Source: JACRDV01 sp024860865 [NCBI: Methanobacteriota archaeon] (lineage in GTDB: Archaea; JACRDV01). From it: a stretch of DNA of 8,896 bases. The stretch spans positions 1-8,896 of the forward strand of contig JACRDV010000119.1 of NCBI GenBank assembly GCA_024860865.1, read 5' to 3'. Positions 765-8,896 of this stretch are shown here, in pieces. Below the pieces are notes generated by a model. That model had not been told where the DNA came from. It ran no database searches and saw only the letters and a program-made list of their open reading frames with translations. Each line of letters begins with the position of its first letter. Position 1 is the stretch's first letter. Made by a program: the position numbers and the translations under genes.

Positions 765-1184
765 TTATTTTGCCTCAACTGGGACTTCTTTAGGCTCTAA
801 TTTATCATAAATAAAGGCTCTGAATTTAGTTTCATATTTTTGAAGCGAAATAATTAACCATACTTCCTTTGGCCAGAGTTTCATGGCTTCTATGTCATAG
901 CCACTTGGATATGCCGCAAACTCAGGATGGGAGTGATAAAATCCAACTAGCTCTAAACCCTCTTTATCAGCCATCGAGACAGCATTATAGATTTCGCGAG
1001 GATCGATGTCAAAGCGAGTTGTCGATTCTAATCTATTTTTAGCATGAACAACCTTTTTTACAAGGATTTCTCCATCATTTTCTTTCCCGAAAAGAAAACC
1101 ACAGCACTCAATTGGAAAAGTCTTTTTGGCTGCGTCTTCCAGTTCTTTGAGCAACTCTATGGGTACAACAAGCTTTTGGCTCAT
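765..1184 (-). CDS. JAMM/MPN+ metallopeptidase, Mec (CysO-Cys peptidase)-like
   Basis: Stand-alone JAB1/MPN/Mov34 zinc peptidase of 139 residues. The complete JAMM signature is present: catalytic Glu26 in PIECCGFLFG (24-33), then His84 and His86, Ser94 and Asp97 in an H-x-H-x7-S-x2-D arrangement (HSHPEFAAYPSGYD). In characterised relatives such as Mycobacterium Mec and Wolinella HcyD, the enzyme cleaves an amino acid (cysteine or homocysteine) from the Gly-Gly end of a ThiS-like carrier. Other prokaryotic JAMM proteins act on ubiquitin-like SAMP conjugates. The CysO-like carrier encoded at 6509-6790 is the obvious candidate substrate, although its operon is 2.4 kb away. A TTG two codons upstream (1190) is possible, but the ATG at 1184 has the better spacing, 8 nt, to an AAGGGA ribosome site. 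The gene is divergent from the plus-strand gene at 1311 and precedes thi4. Confidence 0.88.
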   Translation of the reverse strand: MSQKLVVPIELLKELEDAAKKTFPIECCGFLFGKENDGEILVKKVVHAKNRLESTTRFDIDPREIYNAVSMADKEGLELVGFYHSHPEFAAYPSGYDIEAMKLWPKEVWLIISLQKYETKFRAFIYDKLEPKEVPVEAK

Positions 1185-1220
1185 TTTCAATTTCCCTTCA
1201 CTGATTTGCTAAAAAGTATT

Positions 1221-3582: not shown

Positions 3583-4848
3583 CTAGGCAGAATTCCTTCG
3601 CCAAATAACTCCGGCAGGCTTTAATTCATCAAGTAATTTTTTAAAAGCTTCAAAAGATGGTTCAATTGTTGGAGGCTTTATTAATTTCTCAGCAATGGTT
3701 TCTTGTGTTTTTAGACCATTACCTGTGATGTAAAGAACTATTTTTTCATCCCGATCGATTTCTCCTTCTTCTGCTAATTTCTTAAGAGTCGCTACTACAA
3801 CTCCGCCAGCTGGCTCAGTGAATATTCCTTCAGTTTTAGCCAAGAGCTCAATTGCTCCCAAGGTTTCTTCATCTGTTGAAGCTCTACCAGTCCCGCCGGT
3901 ATTTTTCATTGTTTGGATAGCATAATAACCATCAGCAGGGTCTCCGATAGCTAGACTTTTGCAGATAGTGTTAGGGTGTTCAACCGGTATTATCTCATCA
4001 GTTTTGTTCAACAGAGCTTGAATAATTGGGGAACAACCATTTGGTTGAGCTCCAGAAATTTTTACATGGTTTTCTTTGATCAGACCAACTCGCTCAAACT
4101 CTTGAAAACCTCTTCCAATAGAATGTAAAAGTGCGCCGCTAGCCATGGGTACAATAACATGGTCTGGAGGATTCCATCCTAGTTGTTCACAAACCTCAAA
4201 AGCCAGCGTTTTAGAGCCTTCAACATAATATGGACGGATGTTAATGTTAGCAAAACCAATGTTGCTAGTGACAGCCAACTCTGTAGCTAGTCTGTTGACT
4301 TGATCGTATGTTCCTTTAACAGCTACAATAATGGCCCCATAGGCCAGTGTTTGTGTTATCTTCGTAATCTCAAGACCCTCTGGAACGAAAACAAAACAAG
4401 GTAGCCCCGCCTTCGCGGCATGAGCTGCTAAAGCACCTGCAAGATTGCCAGTTGATGCACATCCTACTGCAGGCATACCAAATTCTAAGGCTTTAGTGAC
4501 AGCAACGCTTGCAGGCCTATCCTTAAAAGAATAGCTTGGGTTAACCGCATCATTTTTCAAGTAAACTTCTTTTAGACCCAATTCTTTTGCGAGTTTATCC
4601 GCTTTCAGAAGCGGAGTAAACCCTGCTCCAATATCTACTATTTTGTCTGTATCGTCAATTGGAAGCAATTCGATGTATCGCCATAAAGTTGGCTTTCTTT
4701 TTTCAATTTTAGTTCGAGATATTGCGCTTGAAATTTTATCGTAATCATAAATGACATCAACTGGTCCGAAGCACAGCTGACAAGCATTCAGCACTTTTTT
4801 AGGATAGTGCTCTTTGCATTCTCTGCATTCAAGTCCTATTGCAAACAT
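3583..4848 (-). CDS. Threonine-synthase-like PLP enzyme with N-terminal zinc ribbon; likely the sulfhydrylase of the carrier operon
   Basis: Fold-type II PLP enzyme of 421 residues. Residues 8-26 hold a C-x2-C...C-x2-C ribbon (Cys8, 11, 23, 26). NPSYSFKDRP (103-112) contains the PLP Lys109, STGNLAGALA (132-141) the cofactor/substrate loop, EPAGG lies at 345-349 and GNGLK at 376-380. The overall plan is that of threonine synthase, which acts on O-phosphohomoserine. The active-site motif deviates from the usual NPTGSFKDRG, and the gene ends an operon with a Gly-Gly sulfur carrier, its E1 and TusA. A sulfhydrylase using O-phosphoserine or O-phosphohomoserine and the carrier thiocarboxylate is therefore more likely than threonine synthesis. 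Cysteate synthase of Methanosarcinales shows that this lineage can switch to O-phosphoserine. The start at 4848 follows the upstream stop by 1 nt and has GGTGG 10 nt upstream; a start at 4911 would overlap the preceding gene by 62 bp. Confidence 0.85.
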   Translation of the reverse strand: MFAIGLECRECKEHYPKKVLNACQLCFGPVDVIYDYDKISSAISRTKIEKRKPTLWRYIELLPIDDTDKIVDIGAGFTPLLKADKLAKELGLKEVYLKNDAVNPSYSFKDRPASVAVTKALEFGMPAVGCASTGNLAGALAAHAAKAGLPCFVFVPEGLEITKITQTLAYGAIIVAVKGTYDQVNRLATELAVTSNIGFANINIRPYYVEGSKTLAFEVCEQLGWNPPDHVIVPMASGALLHSIGRGFQEFERVGLIKENHVKISGAQPNGCSPIIQALLNKTDEIIPVEHPNTICKSLAIGDPADGYYAIQTMKNTGGTGRASTDEETLGAIELLAKTEGIFTEPAGGVVVATLKKLAEEGEIDRDEKIVLYITGNGLKTQETIAEKLIKPPTIEPSFEAFKKLLDELKPAGVIWRRNSA

Positions 4849-4849
4849 G

Positions 4850-5383
4850 TTATTTCTTCCACCAGCAGACTTCTCCTCCAAACTCAACCAAGCGCCTTCT
4901 GAGGTGGACATCCTTGAACCTCCCCCAAAGCCTTGGATCGATACGATCCAAAGCGACTTTAGTTTTAATACCTCGTTCTAAAGTGAATTTGCAATCTAAA
5001 CTGCAAGGAATATAACCATAAGAACCGAGAAAGAATTCGTTAGGAATGTGCTTGCCACTTTGAAGGGCCTTTATCTCTTCTTTTGATATTTTTTCGCTGA
5101 GCTTTGAACCCTGCTCAAGAAAAGCTTTTACACAGCACTGTGGAATTCCAAACCAATCGCCTCTAGCTTTAGTATCTTCAGCTAAAGCTTCAAGATCACC
5201 CTTAACTTTAGCGACTAAATATTTCCCATTTTTATGTTTGTAAATGAGACCAAGATTTGTTATCAAAACCTCAAGATCTTTATCAGCATGTCTATTGATT
5301 TCAGCACCTTTTTTTATTCCCTCCTTTACCATAACTAAGTCTACAACTACACCGGGTTGTTCTTCAACCAAACTTTTTGCCAT
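4850..5383 (-). CDS. DUF483-like Cys-rich protein in the sulfur operon
   Basis: A 177-residue soluble protein of unknown function. Two cysteine motifs stand out: FGIPQCCVKAFLEQG around Cys83-Cys84, and YIPCSLDC with Cys127 and Cys131. A fifth Cys (173) lies near the Trp-rich C-terminus. From memory these motifs match the archaeal/bacterial DUF483 family; I could not search. The arrangement would suit a metal site or a redox or persulfide-carrying pair, but no catalytic residues are known to me. The gene sits between tusA and the threonine-synthase-like gene. It starts 39 nt after tusA, with GGAG 8 nt before its ATG, and its TAA is 1 nt before the next start. This tight placement suggests it works with the sulfur carrier or the PLP enzyme. 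Confidence 0.78.
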   Translation of the reverse strand: MAKSLVEEQPGVVVDLVMVKEGIKKGAEINRHADKDLEVLITNLGLIYKHKNGKYLVAKVKGDLEALAEDTKARGDWFGIPQCCVKAFLEQGSKLSEKISKEEIKALQSGKHIPNEFFLGSYGYIPCSLDCKFTLERGIKTKVALDRIDPRLWGRFKDVHLRRRLVEFGGEVCWWKK

Positions 5384-5422
5384 TTAGTGCGCTCCAATTT
5401 TTTCATTTTAAATTTAAAATTT

Positions 5423-5662
5423 TCAAGTACTTTCTTTAACTTTGATCCAAATGCCCCAAAGTTTTTCACTTTCTTTCTCAACCTTTAGGACCTCATGCCC
5501 GAGGGTTTTTATACTTCGTGGAATATTTCTGGAAGCTGGCTCATAATCAACAATCACTTTTAAAATCTGATTTGGTTCCATCTCTTCTACTTGCAGTTTT
5601 GTTTTAACATAAGTGTAAGGGCAAACATCTCCTCTTAAATCGAGTTCGACATCAGGTTTCAT
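5423..5662 (-). CDS. tusA-like: TusA/SirA-family sulfur-carrier protein
   Basis: A 79-residue TusA-fold protein. LDLRGDVCPYTYVKTKLQVE at residues 8-27 is the family signature. Cys14 is the persulfide-carrying cysteine; the CPxP motif of bacterial TusA is CPYT here. TusA proteins accept sulfane sulfur from a desulfurase or rhodanese and hand it to partners. In this operon the likely acceptor is the adenylated C-terminus of the CysO-like carrier, via the E1. The start is well supported: GGAGG lies 6 nt before the ATG and overlaps the TAG of the E1 gene, 10 nt upstream. No rhodanese or IscS/NifS-type desulfurase is visible in the window, so the sulfur source for TusA is unknown. Confidence 0.9.
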   Translation of the reverse strand: MKPDVELDLRGDVCPYTYVKTKLQVEEMEPNQILKVIVDYEPASRNIPRSIKTLGHEVLKVEKESEKLWGIWIKVKEST

Positions 5663-5672
5663 TAAAAGCCTC

Positions 5673-6479
5673 CTAAATTACACATACATGGCCGTATTCT
5701 AATTGTGAAACATCAGTGATAGTAGGATTCTCTCCACACACAGGGCATTTCGGATCTTTATTGATCTGAAATTCGTTAAAAGCCATGTTAATTGCATCAT
5801 AAATCAATAATCTACCTTTGAGAAGAGTTCCTATTTTCAATATGTACTTTAGAACTTCAGTCGATTGTATTAGCGCAATAGTGCCCGGGACAGTTCCCAA
5901 AACTCCGCCTTCTTGGCAGGATGGAATCAATCCTTCTGGGGGCTGTTCCGGGAAAATACATCTATAGCAAGGTGTTTCGCCAGGTATAATTGTGGTGACT
6001 TGTCCTTCAAACCTAAAGACACTACCGTGGAATATTGGCTTCTTTTGAATTACACATGCATCATTTATTAAAAACCTAGTTGGAAAATTATCAGACCCAT
6101 CGAGAACGGCATCATAATCTTTTATTATATCAAAAACATTTTTGGGAGTGACCATAGTTTGAAAAGTTTCAACTTTCACATTTGGATTTAAACTTTCTAT
6201 GAATTCTTTGGCAGATTCAGTTTTTGGTTTTCCAATATCTTTAGTTAAATGAATGACCTGCCTTTGGAGATTACTTACATCAACTTTATCAAAGTCTATG
6301 ACTCCAAGTGTTCCAATGCCGGCAGCTGCAAGATATATTAACGCTGGTGCACCAAGTCCGCCGGCACCAACTACTAAAATTTTGGCGCTCCTTAATTTCT
6401 TCTGACCCTTACCTCCAACTTCATTCAAAATTATTTGGCGACTGTATCTCTTAATCTCTTCTTCTGTGAATCCAAGCAT
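5673..6479 (-). CDS. ThiF/MoeB/HesA-family E1-like adenylyltransferase
   Basis: A 268-residue E1-like enzyme that activates the Gly-Gly C-terminus of a ubiquitin-like sulfur carrier as acyl-adenylate. The N-terminal YSRQIILNEVGGKGQ precedes the nucleotide loop GAGGLG (38-43). IDFDKVDVSNLQRQ (61-74) holds the ATP-contacting Asp and Arg, and Lys86 and Asp130 (DGSDNFPTR) are in place. Zinc ligands form two pairs, Cys171/Cys174 and Cys245/Cys248. Cys188 in PSCQEGG is the candidate catalytic cysteine used in sulfur transfer. There is no C-terminal rhodanese domain, unlike MoeZ or MOCS3, which may explain why a TusA-like gene follows. It begins 29 nt after the carrier gene, with GGGAG 4-5 nt before its ATG. 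It may also serve molybdopterin, tRNA thiolation or SAMP pathways, as archaeal UbaA does, but the operon argues for a dedicated role. Confidence 0.92.
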   Translation of the reverse strand: MLGFTEEEIKRYSRQIILNEVGGKGQKKLRSAKILVVGAGGLGAPALIYLAAAGIGTLGVIDFDKVDVSNLQRQVIHLTKDIGKPKTESAKEFIESLNPNVKVETFQTMVTPKNVFDIIKDYDAVLDGSDNFPTRFLINDACVIQKKPIFHGSVFRFEGQVTTIIPGETPCYRCIFPEQPPEGLIPSCQEGGVLGTVPGTIALIQSTEVLKYILKIGTLLKGRLLIYDAINMAFNEFQINKDPKCPVCGENPTITDVSQLEYGHVCVI

Positions 6480-6508
6480 TGAACTCCCTTATAAAAAATT
6501 TTAGATTA

Positions 6509-6790
6509 TTAACCTCCAGAAACAGCTGGTAAGATTGAAACTTCATCATTATCTTTAAGCGGCGTTTTTAAACCACCAGTAAGCCGAGTATCTTTTCCAT
6601 TTACAAAAACGTTTATAAACCTGCGAACTTTACCAGTTTTCTGGTCAATTAATCTTTCTTTGAAATCGTTTCCATATTTTGCAATGAGTTCTTCTACTAG
6701 CTGCTCGACCGTTGTTGCGTTTATATCGGTTTCTTTCTCTTGATTTGTTACAGCAGTCAAAACTGACGAGAAGCGCACTTTTACCGCCAG
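6509..6790 (-). CDS. CysO/MoaD/ThiS-family ubiquitin-like sulfur carrier ending in Gly-Gly; probable CTG start
   Basis: A small beta-grasp carrier of 93 residues when started at CTG 6790. It opens with strand VKVRF, has a helix LVEELIAKYG (31-40), then RRFINVFVNG (56-65) and TGGLKTPLKDNDEVSILPAV (71-90), and ends SGG. The C-terminal third is very close in pattern to mycobacterial CysO, which is also 93 residues and ends ILPAVAGG. The Gly-Gly end is where thiocarboxylate forms after E1 activation. Start choice: GGAGGG lies exactly 6 nt before the CTG, and the CTG restores residues MAVK of the first strand. The next in-frame start, GTG 6778, lies 18 nt from that site and would trim the strand. 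No ATG, GTG or TTG exists in frame upstream before the stop at 6827-6829. It is the first gene of the operon. Confidence 0.9.
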   Translation of the reverse strand: MAVKVRFSSVLTAVTNQEKETDINATTVEQLVEELIAKYGNDFKERLIDQKTGKVRRFINVFVNGKDTRLTGGLKTPLKDNDEVSILPAVSGG

Positions 6791-6941: not shown

Positions 6942-7505
6942 TTGGCCGAAGAATTTGACCAAGAAGAAATTAAACGATTAAGAAGACAAGCAAATATAAC
7001 TCAAACTGAATTAGCAAAACGAGCAGGTGTAAGTCAGTCGTTAATTGCGCGGATAGAAGCAGGCACGCTCGATCCAAGACTTTCTACCTTTAAAAAAATA
7101 TTGGATGCGCTCAAGCAAGTTCAAGTTGAGAAAAAACGCAAAGTCGAGGAACTAATGAGCAGCCCAGTTATCTATGTTGGCCCGGATGATACTGTTGTTA
7201 AAGTTGCGCGATTGATGCAAAAAAATTCTATTTCCCAACTTCCAGTTTTAGACAAGGGAATTCAGGTAGGTAGTGTTTCAGAAACTAGCGTAATTAATAG
7301 GATAGCCACAGAAGGGGATCCAACTAGGCTTGTAAATCTAAAAGTAGGAGAAATAATGGAGGATCCCTTTCCAACAGTTAGTAAAACTGCTAACCTAGAT
7401 GTTGCAGTTTCATTATTGCGAAGTTCTCCTGCCGTATTAGTTGTAGATAAGGGGAGAGCAGTCGGAATAATTGCAAAAGCTGATGCAATCAAACTGTTGC
7501 GCTAA
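6942..7505 (+). CDS. XRE-family HTH regulator fused to two CBS domains
   Basis: A 187-residue archaeal-type regulator. Residues 9-62 form an HTH_3/XRE domain (QTELAKRAGVSQSLIARIEAG at 21-41 is the helix-turn-helix). Residues 69-125 and 136-187 are CBS domains (MSSPVIYVGPDDTV; MEDPFPTVSKTANLD), a pair that usually forms a Bateman module binding adenosyl ligands such as AMP, ATP or SAM. It probably senses such a ligand and controls transcription. It is divergent from the sulfur operon and separated from it by about 150 bp containing two dyads, so control of that operon and of itself is a reasonable inference; a SAM-type ligand would fit the context. The start is TTG 6942, the only start available after an in-frame TGA at 6930, with GAGATGA just upstream acting as a weak ribosome site. 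Confidence 0.88.
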   Translation: MAEEFDQEEIKRLRRQANITQTELAKRAGVSQSLIARIEAGTLDPRLSTFKKILDALKQVQVEKKRKVEELMSSPVIYVGPDDTVVKVARLMQKNSISQLPVLDKGIQVGSVSETSVINRIATEGDPTRLVNLKVGEIMEDPFPTVSKTANLDVAVSLLRSSPAVLVVDKGRAVGIIAKADAIKLLR

Positions 7506-7530: not shown

Positions 7531-7543
7531 TTTTTTAAAAATT
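7531..7543. terminator. Bidirectional T/A-tract terminator between convergent genes
   Basis: TTTTTTAAAAATT fills the 36-bp gap between the convergent HTH-CBS and zinc-ribbon genes. It gives a T6 run for the plus strand and a T5 run for the minus strand, so it can end both transcripts. Inferred from sequence. Confidence 0.45.
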
Positions 7544-7886
7544 ATCTTTGGGCTCTATTACACTCTGTACAGAAAATTGTATCAGCAGGCATTTCAGCTC
7601 CACAAAATTTGCATTGTTGTACTTGAACTTGAGGCTGAATCATTAGTCTCTCTCTTGGAGTAGCTCCGTATATTGCCCATCCTAAACCAATAATAGCAAT
7701 AATTGCTCCTAACAATTCCATATAGAGGGCTTGGCCATACTCAACCGTGGGTGAGCCATAAAAGCCGTAAATACCCGCCTTCTCCATTCCTGTTTGATAA
7801 ATTTGGATCGCTATTAAGCCGTATACAAATATCAATACGCCAATTGCAAGTAAAAACATGCCAAAACCGAAATATCCAGCGCGCAT
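7542..7886 (-). CDS. Two-helix membrane protein with C-terminal zinc ribbon
   Basis: A 114-residue protein of unknown function. Two hydrophobic segments (about residues 8-30 and 53-74) should span the membrane. They are joined by a short loop (QTGMEKAGIYGFYG) and followed by a Pro/Gln-rich linker at 84-91. The C-terminus is a zinc ribbon with Cys92, Cys95, Cys106 and Cys109 (CKFCG...CTECN). N- and C-termini are predicted on the same, probably cytoplasmic, side. Such small zinc-ribbon membrane proteins are common in archaea and mostly uncharacterised. The ATG at 7886 lies 12 nt after the SepCysS stop, so the two genes should share a transcript. A functional link to tRNA-bound cysteine synthesis is possible but unsupported beyond position. 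Confidence 0.75.
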   Translation of the reverse strand: MRAGYFGFGMFLLAIGVLIFVYGLIAIQIYQTGMEKAGIYGFYGSPTVEYGQALYMELLGAIIAIIGLGWAIYGATPRERLMIQPQVQVQQCKFCGAEMPADTIFCTECNRAQR

Positions 7887-7898
7887 AGATCCTCTCGA

Positions 7899-8896
7899 TT
7901 ATTGTTTTATATTAAATTCTTTTGTGTATTTTTCAACAATATCAAAAAAAGCATCGTGAAGGTTTGTCAATCCCTCTGAGCTTAGTCCATAAGTCGAAAG
8001 TTTAACATGCTTGCTCAATCCACGGTGTAATCCAATAAATCCGTGCTTCTCCATTTCTTCAGCCAAGAAGAATCCCTTGCGCTTATGGTGCTTTGAGATT
8101 TCCCAAAAAATTGGAGTTTCCAAATGAATCAAATGGTGGTTATGAGGTCTTTCTCCAATAATCATTATGCCTTGGATATTTTCTATTTCTTGTATAAACC
8201 ATCCGATTTTTTTTAACTCTTCACCCCAAGTTTTTGTGCGTTCTACCACATATGGAAATGATAACATTGAACTAATTAGTGGGATACCACCAACGCTGCA
8301 TCCAAAAACATTTGGAATTTTTTTTCCAAAGACTCGGCCAGTCCAATCTGGTTTTATTGTTGATGGAGCAAATGCCTTTTTTCCCCACTCATAAGAGGTT
8401 ATTAAAAAACCAAGCGGTCCCAGAGATGCCATTGATTTGTGAGCAGATATTGTCAAAAAATCAGCCTTAAAATCTCGCATATTAACTGGCATGACCCCGC
8501 CAGTATATGCTGCATTCACCATGTAAGGTATTCCATAATCCTCTGCTATTTTCCCAACTTCTTTTACTGGATTAAGATTGCCATAATATGGCTCAACGTG
8601 AGTTAAAACTAAGAGAGCTGGAAGTTTTTCACTTTGGCTTTTAACTTGTTCGATTTTTTCCACAAAGTCCTCTGTCCTCACTTTATATTCTGGATACCCT
8701 GTGTTCGTAGGTTCCACTAGTTGTAGGCCAGCCATTTCAGCAGCAATTGCGGTTGAATAATGGCATAAAGGATCTGCCACTATTATGTTTGTGTAGTCTT
8801 TTGATCCTTCAACTTTCAAGCTTTCGGCTATTGTTCTAACAACTGCGAATTGGGCTGCGCGGCATCCAAATGTATGTTCTGCGACATCTCCGCCAA
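7899..8896 (-). CDS. pscS: O-phospho-L-seryl-tRNA:Cys-tRNA synthase (SepCysS), N-terminus cut by window edge
   Basis: PLP enzyme that converts Sep-tRNA(Cys) to Cys-tRNA(Cys), the second step after SepRS. 331 residues are visible; the frame is open from 8894 and the TTG at 8819 is internal, not the start. The preceding visible residues GGDVAEHTFGCRAAQFAVVR belong to the family's conserved N-terminal part, and roughly 50-60 residues are missing. The PLP lysine is in SAHKSMASLGPLG (codon 8436-8438). FGCSVGG keeps the conserved cysteine implicated in persulfide or Fe-S chemistry. PHNHHLIHLETP and the C-terminal GLHRGLSKHVKLSTYGLS match SepCysS sequences as I remember them. The N-terminal C-x2-C pair lies outside the window, as does SepRS if linked. 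The zinc-ribbon membrane gene follows by 12 nt. Confidence 0.93.
   Translation of the reverse strand, partial: GGDVAEHTFGCRAAQFAVVRTIAESLKVEGSKDYTNIIVADPLCHYSTAIAAEMAGLQLVEPTNTGYPEYKVRTEDFVEKIEQVKSQSEKLPALLVLTHVEPYYGNLNPVKEVGKIAEDYGIPYMVNAAYTGGVMPVNMRDFKADFLTISAHKSMASLGPLGFLITSYEWGKKAFAPSTIKPDWTGRVFGKKIPNVFGCSVGGIPLISSMLSFPYVVERTKTWGEELKKIGWFIQEIENIQGIMIIGERPHNHHLIHLETPIFWEISKHHKRKGFFLAEEMEKHGFIGLHRGLSKHVKLSTYGLSSEGLTNLHDAFFDIVEKYTKEFNIKQ

Follow-up and report, generated by a model that had tools for sequence, protein, structure and literature searches.

An archaeal operon that probably encodes a MetM/MetO-type homocysteine synthase together with its own sulfur-loading enzymes

Which amino acid is made where an archaeon places a threonine-synthase-like enzyme in one operon with a ubiquitin-like sulfur carrier? 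The question is raised by the 8,896-nucleotide stretch analysed here (hereafter the window), which is an entire contig (C74), one of 160 in a 1.54 Mb archaeal genome whose completeness is 92.5%. On its minus strand, from position 6790 to 3583, genes for a carrier, an E1-like protein, a TusA-like protein, a DUF483-like protein and a pyridoxal phosphate (PLP)-dependent enzyme run head to tail, with gaps of 1–39 bp if the PLP enzyme is taken to start at 4848. All five, along with the JAMM peptidase that a preliminary description of this DNA had named with them, were recovered as open reading frames and profile matches. We consider it likely that the operon encodes an archaeal homocysteine synthase of the MetM/MetO type with its own sulfur-loading enzymes, homocysteine being the precursor of methionine. 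Its genes are:

3583..4848, minus strand: MetM-like PLP enzyme of the ThrC lineage, 421 aa (PALP 247 bits; TIGR00260 (thrC) 297 bits)
4850..5383, minus strand: DUF483-like, Cys-rich protein (PF04467 31.7 bits, cut-off 25)
5423..5662, minus strand: TusA-like sulfurtransferase with CPYT replacing CPxP (TusA 77.5 bits; motif table)
5673..6479, minus strand: E1-like adenylyltransferase of the MoeB/ThiF/UbaA type (ThiF 297 bits; best PDB match MoeB 1jw9)
6509..6790, minus strand: MetO/CysO-like sulfur carrier with a C-terminal SGG (Pfam ThiS 56.5 bits; moaD_arch 61.9 bits, over cut-off)

For the PLP enzyme, the most likely start is not at 4911 but at the ATG at 4848, which matches where its homologues begin (the one at locus L046 likewise has 421 aa). 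NCBIfam labels it a threonine synthase, its TIGR00260 score lying well over the cut-off of 167. CysK or CysM was rejected as its identity (cysKM 48 bits, cut-off 344), as were cysteate synthase (TIGR03844 86.5, cut-off 324.9) and, also by score, MetY. The host genome encodes four PALP proteins, namely ThrC, the MetM-like enzyme and two that were read by eye as TrpB. One of the observations that the preliminary description had named as refuting its reading, a genome with no other threonine synthase, does not apply: a canonical ThrC is encoded on contig C25, carries the motif NPSGSFKDRG and is 41% identical to the window enzyme.

Relatives of the enzyme form a widespread clade of their own. Among 61 archaeal genomes, five others hold close homologues (54–58% identity), one of them (G023) with an extra 79-residue piece at 54% identity that lies on a different contig; none of the other matches listed exceeds 42%. 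Scanning genome contigs with the clade alignment, we took the best 80 loci of a larger number by enzyme similarity alone, and these come from archaea and many bacterial phyla, including cyanobacteria, Chloroflexota and Actinomycetota. Viral contigs contained no relative, and a plasmid collection held one record at E 1e-60, from Nonomuraea (L176) and 45.6% identical; 37 bp past the match, a carrier begins there. A quick maximum-likelihood tree that took in 42 of the 80 named loci separated 50 MetM-like from 25 ThrC proteins with a Shimodaira–Hasegawa-like approximate likelihood ratio (SH-aLRT) of 100, the nearest relative of the window enzyme being L046, from a Hadesarchaea genome (67%). The split recurred, again at SH-aLRT 100, between 68 MetM-like and 23 ThrC proteins in an enlarged quick tree, to which 17 archaeal loci and one actinobacterial locus (Nonomuraea) had been added and from which two long-branch ThrC (L027, L034) had been removed.

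What sets this clade apart at the level of gene order is the carrier. The enzyme has a carrier-like frame next to it in 75 of the 80 best loci (tblastn, either strand) and in 62 of the 80 by a same-strand open-reading-frame test, in which the greedy choice of frames left no MetM frame at L056, L061, L073, L077 and L085; for the same reason the first four of these have none in our neighbour listing of 76 loci. L103, with a weak upstream match and 195 bp of downstream sequence, is undecided and was not counted as carrier-bearing. Nearly all adjacent carriers have PA[VI]xGG at or close to their end. Beside canonical archaeal ThrC, a carrier was found at none of 25 genes, within flanks mostly of about 1.5 kb. 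Most archaeal MetM loci examined also have an adjoining carrier, L195 being cut by a contig end; L047/L191 and L049/L192 appear to be identical contigs under two names. Clade placement and carrier adjacency thus agree with the preliminary description in pairing a ThrC-lineage enzyme with a thiocarboxylate-type carrier. That the pair is an archaeal speciality or a new parallel route, as had also been proposed, is not supported: it occurs in cyanobacteria, Chloroflexota, Actinomycetota and other groups and has been described as MetM/MetO.

The substrate pocket tells the same two groups apart. Relative to Thermus (Tth) ThrC, all 50 clade members aligned to it, the window enzyme included, carry L, N, R and Y in place of T88, S155, N157 and R160, residues that 24 of 24 ThrC retain (L027 and L034 again excluded). 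In ThrC, the phosphate of the substrate is bound by S155 and R160, and the carboxylate by the loop of residue 88. The 18 further clade members keep the same replacements, except L180 with T instead of N; in a motif search, four loci missed the pattern only through Arg for Lys outside the pocket, with L180 additionally showing T for N. A pocket that was rebuilt and has since stayed the same in archaeal, cyanobacterial and actinobacterial members suggests a single common reaction. The AlphaFold model of the enzyme is good (predicted local distance difference test score, pLDDT, 82.1); its fold is nearest to threonine synthases (2c2b, Z 44.7; 1uim, Z 40.7), with CapA2 (9k3c, called a cysteate synthase) at Z 39.4 and 18% identity, and such a comparison of a model does not settle the substrate.

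HcyBio had no match in the host genome, and PF01053 gave six weak partial matches (best 30.8 bits), none of them at 1e-40; such matches, found in most genomes searched, probably represent other aminotransferases. The host genome thus shows no full MetB/MetY-type enzyme among its PF01053 matches, and the absence of such an enzyme is a reported trait of Streptomyces MetM/MetO hosts. A MetE-like protein scored 31.9 bits only. Across 297 archaeal genomes, in which MetM and ThrC were separated by a score gap and 17 of the MetM loci then confirmed in the tree, MetM occurs in 31 (29 at 562 bits or more and two partial, G277 and G162). HcyBio and a strong PF01053 protein are both missing from 22 of these 31; one or the other is present in 128 of the 266 genomes that have no MetM.

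MetM reportedly makes homocysteine from O-phosphohomoserine with thiocarboxylated MetO (Hasebe et al. 2024). By analogy, and going by the families to which the proteins belong, the E1 would adenylate the C-terminal Gly-Gly of the carrier and TusA, standing in for a rhodanese domain, would supply sulfur as persulfide. The MetM-like enzyme would then use the carrier thiocarboxylate, eliminating phosphate from O-phosphohomoserine and adding sulfur at the gamma carbon, and homocysteine would be released directly, unless an acyl shift and JAMM peptidase cleavage come first. This reading draws on gene content, the clade, carrier adjacency, the altered pocket, the separate ThrC and the lack of HcyBio and of a strong PF01053 match, all of them sequence evidence. 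Of the two reactions that the preliminary description had offered, the conversion of O-phosphohomoserine to homocysteine is accordingly the likely one and well supported by clade, pocket, carrier and separate ThrC; that of O-phosphoserine to cysteine has little in its favour and is judged unlikely. Seven of seven clade members tested exceed the NCBI cut-off for threonine synthase, so a homocysteine synthase may stand mislabelled as threonine synthase in genomes that range from ammonia-oxidising archaea to cyanobacteria.

Several observations weigh against this reading. Two of the six PF01053 matches, partial as they are, exceed the Pfam cut-off, which at 27 bits is low, and the genome is 92% complete. 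No GHMP homoserine kinase exceeded the cut-off in the host genome (three of four weak GHMP matches read by eye as mevalonate kinase, beta-RFAP synthase and shikimate kinase), so that we infer a supply of O-phosphohomoserine from the presence of ThrC only. HcyBio and/or a strong PF01053 protein accompany MetM in nine of the 31 genomes (families f27, f8 and f30). Mutual exclusion between MetM and these enzymes, seen at 0 of 6 carriers of MetM in the 61 genomes, was therefore rejected at 9 of 31 in the 297: the inverse association is not significant (Fisher p = 0.056, a value that treats related genomes as independent). No carrier was found by tblastn within 3 kb at L085, L086, L117 and L124, of which L086 and L124 fall inside the clade, nor in the examined locus of G126 (L185). 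Homology to S. albulus MetM, moreover, runs through cyanobacterial and Nonomuraea (L176) relatives rather than through the MetM sequence itself. Among the cyanobacterial relatives, the Microcystis enzyme, 51.6% identical to MetM, is described in an excerpt of PMC12172450 as having threonine synthase and deaminase activity and an unidentified product peak, while homocysteine was not proven; this speaks against simply carrying the function over.

The carrier is a Gly-Gly carrier as first described; its stated length of 93 residues would need CTG at 6790 as start codon, and from the first usual one, GTG at 6778, it has 89 aa (6509–6778). Its likeness to CysO was borne out by its best PDB match, chain C of 3dwg (58.5 bits), which we take to be M. 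tuberculosis CysO. Pfam profiles found no rhodanese domain in the window E1 (ThiF and one sub-cut-off match only). That TusA substitutes for the rhodanese domain of MoeZ, as first suggested, is plausible and was proposed for the SirA protein of related operons in 2006 (PMC1779556, in excerpt). DUF483 homologues sit upstream of MetM in L046 and L184 as well. The structure model of the window DUF483 protein is poor (mean pLDDT 43.9, from three sequences), and no structure search was made with it. A sister operon, L036, has no DUF483 and instead encodes a YkgJ-type CxxCxxCC protein (L036:7500-7958); the two, both Cys-rich, may be alternatives of each other, and our guess is that DUF483 may bind metal or handle persulfide.

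TusA-like proteins encoded at 5423–5662 and at related loci form a subfamily with CPxT[FY] where CPxP is usual. Among TusA-like frames beside E1, DUF169 or SepCysS, CPxT rather than CPxP is found in the window and in 18 of the 24 listed; of the others, five have CPxP (two of them beside E1, at L178 and L179) and one CPVT.

In six loci (L058, L079, L099, L106, L111 and L118), one or two residues follow the Gly-Gly of the carrier (GGK, GGL, GGR, GGAN, GGAI, GGSR) and would have to be trimmed before use. The carrier is fused ahead of E1 in L046 and L184 (Hadarchaeota-type) and in most Nitrososphaeria loci (L046:11289-12392, L184:7052-8170, L038:5374-6699 and L039:8344-9684, with AGG followed by a linker); the internal Gly-Gly of such a fusion must be cut out before thiocarboxylation. 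A JAMM gene adjoining TusA in L046 is a natural candidate for this cut.

Outside the operon, the window contains:

765..1190, minus strand: JAMM peptidase with HSHP...PSGYD (Prok-JAB 77 bits; best PDB match 5lda JAMM1, 82.9 bits)
6942..7505, plus strand: helix-turn-helix (HTH) protein with two CBS domains (HTH_3 and CBS), divergent from the operon
7542..7886, minus strand: small protein, flanked by SepCysS and the HTH-CBS gene, that weakly matches a zinc ribbon
7899..8896, minus strand: 3' part of SepCysS (PRK09331 337.7 bits, cut-off 301; PDB 3wkr), running off the contig end

The HTH-CBS gene is a candidate regulator. No Rfam family reached its gathering score in the window, which therefore holds no known riboswitch.

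The preliminary description linked the JAMM peptidase to the route, and in the window this link is weak. Its gene lies 2.4 kb from the operon in a separate transcription unit, on the same strand as Thi4 and 75 bp upstream of it, and a JAMM gene was detected near the enzyme in three of the 76 listed loci (L046, L071 and L125). The protein is a candidate carrier protease whose tie to the operon is uncertain. Thi4, its neighbour within positions 1–1190, is a sulfide-dependent thiazole synthase, and thiamine, not the operon, may be where the peptidase belongs.

The preliminary description did not mention SepCysS, which lies beyond the HTH-CBS gene. Contig C77 (L156:1-1515) holds the same region with the 5' part and, upstream on the same strand, DUF169; the N-terminal CxxC, whose cysteines have a role in SepCysS, reads CFDC there. 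Within SepCysS, where the two contigs overlap, a few residues differ, as would fit strain variants that broke the assembly. TIGR02539 stays under its cut-off for the window protein, as it does for full-length relatives of this branch (G001, 348 against 365). The host also has SepRS (650.8 bits) and CysRS (528.6 bits).

Proximity of SepCysS to MetM recurs. In L036 and L157, MetM, carrier, the YkgJ-type CxxCxxCC protein, E1, TusA, DUF169 and SepCysS form a single run; L167 has the same run with two small frames ahead of SepCysS, and families f27 and f8 (L178, L182) spread the same genes over about 10 kb, among genes that look by eye like sulfate assimilation. Of the 23 genomes having both, 12 (in 7 of 11 families) have SepCysS and MetM no more than 10 kb apart, against a chance expectation of about 0.37; the genomes are not independent, and one case spans the two ends of one contig, provided that it is circular. 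A SepCysS-family match lies about 50 bp from a PF01053 match in G071, G132, G150 and G223, which are all of one family; SepCysS paralogues might be tied to homocysteine-type enzymes in this second way too.

We know of no settled physiological sulfur donor for SepCysS. It is possible, though doubtful, that one relay of TusA, E1 and carrier, with DUF169, feeds thiocarboxylate or persulfide sulfur to both MetM and SepCysS. Such archaea would then assimilate sulfur for homocysteine and for tRNA-made cysteine through a ubiquitin-like carrier hub, and this hub would be the physiological donor of SepCysS. In archaea with both MetM and SepCysS, the clustering of the two renders the sulfur donor of tRNA-dependent cysteine synthesis directly testable. 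In the excerpts of PMC8762117, PMC1779556 and PMC2948915 that were covered, the link between MetM and SepCysS is not described; subscription literature lay mostly outside this search, which is no proof that the link is unpublished.

Could the PLP enzyme instead make free cysteine from O-phosphoserine and the carrier thiocarboxylate, as CysM does with CysO? The host has CysRS and hence uses free cysteine, none of its PALP proteins looks like CysK, CysM or CBS, no PF01053 match is strong, and the carrier's closest PDB match is CysO; cysteate synthase, a ThrC relative, does use O-phosphoserine. We nevertheless regard this as improbable: the enzyme falls far short of the cut-offs for cysK, cysKM and cysteate synthase, its pocket residues recur in MetM-like proteins of cyanobacteria and actinobacteria, whose Streptomyces relative reportedly uses O-phosphohomoserine, and SepRS with SepCysS already provides a cysteine route.

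The clustering with SepCysS could also mean that carrier, E1 and TusA mainly feed SepCysS and tRNA thiolation, with MetM an extra user or working with free sulfide; TusA stands directly ahead of DUF169-SepCysS in L036, L157 and L161, and TusA-DUF169 precedes SepCysS in L167 with two small frames between. SepCysS works in vitro with sulfide, however, and L046 is the only named locus with a SepCysS match close to the enzyme, while eight Nitrososphaeria-type genomes with the enzyme–carrier pair have no SepRS; MetM is thus the carrier's usual partner, and we hold this alternative to be very unlikely. That the enzyme is a second threonine synthase or a threonine deaminase, its carrier serving molybdopterin or tRNA thiolation, would accord with its TIGR00260 score and with the two activities reported for the Microcystis homologue (PMC12172450, in excerpt), yet appears extremely improbable given a canonical ThrC on C25, a pocket changed at Tth positions 88, 155, 157 and 160 in 50 of 50 clade members, and a carrier that adjoins the MetM-like clade and not ThrC.

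How, then, does a predicted homocysteine operon of this kind compare with systems already known? CysO-CysM-MoeZ-Mec of Mycobacterium shares with it the carrier, closest to 3dwg_C, an E1 and a JAMM protein in the contig; it differs in that the window PLP enzyme is not CysM, the E1 has no rhodanese domain and the JAMM gene sits in another transcription unit. In Wolinella, HcyS/HcyF/HcyD act with MetY and the product is homocysteine. Carrier, E1 without rhodanese and SirA/TusA recur in that system and the SirA operons, whereas the window sulfhydrylase is of the ThrC lineage and not an O-acetylhomoserine enzyme, with no strong PF01053 match in the host; the window JAMM gene is 2.4 kb off in another unit, and that of L046 adjoins TusA. 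The SirA operons, which combine carrier, E1 without rhodanese, SirA (TusA family) and O-acetylhomoserine sulfhydrylase, are those of row 4e in Iyer et al. 2006, where SirA is predicted to act like rhodanese (PMC1779556, in excerpt). Ubl-E1 fusion proteins of Thaumarchaeota were noted by Makarova and Koonin 2010 (PMC2948915, in excerpt); carrier–E1 fusions adjoin MetM in the Nitrososphaeria-type loci L038 and L039, while carrier and E1 are separate genes in the window. A term search of the main text of PMC2948915 found neither 'threonine synthase' nor 'ThrC'.

The closest likeness is to MetM/MetO. The homocysteine synthase MetM was found in Streptomyces (S. albulus) by Hasebe et al. 2024 (AEM e01247-24) and has homologues in cyanobacteria, where the carrier gene beside Microcystis thrC resembles S. 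albulus metO (47.25%; PMC12172450, in excerpt). A ThrC-like PLP enzyme, an adjoining carrier gene and, by analogy, the route from O-phosphohomoserine to homocysteine would be common to both. The window operon adds E1, a CPxT-type TusA and DUF483, has SepCysS 3 kb away, and lies in a window without any Rfam family at gathering score, whereas S. albulus metM has an S-adenosylmethionine riboswitch according to the same excerpt. The predicted chemistry is known from Streptomyces, but in this archaeon its genes stand beside one for tRNA-dependent cysteine synthesis.

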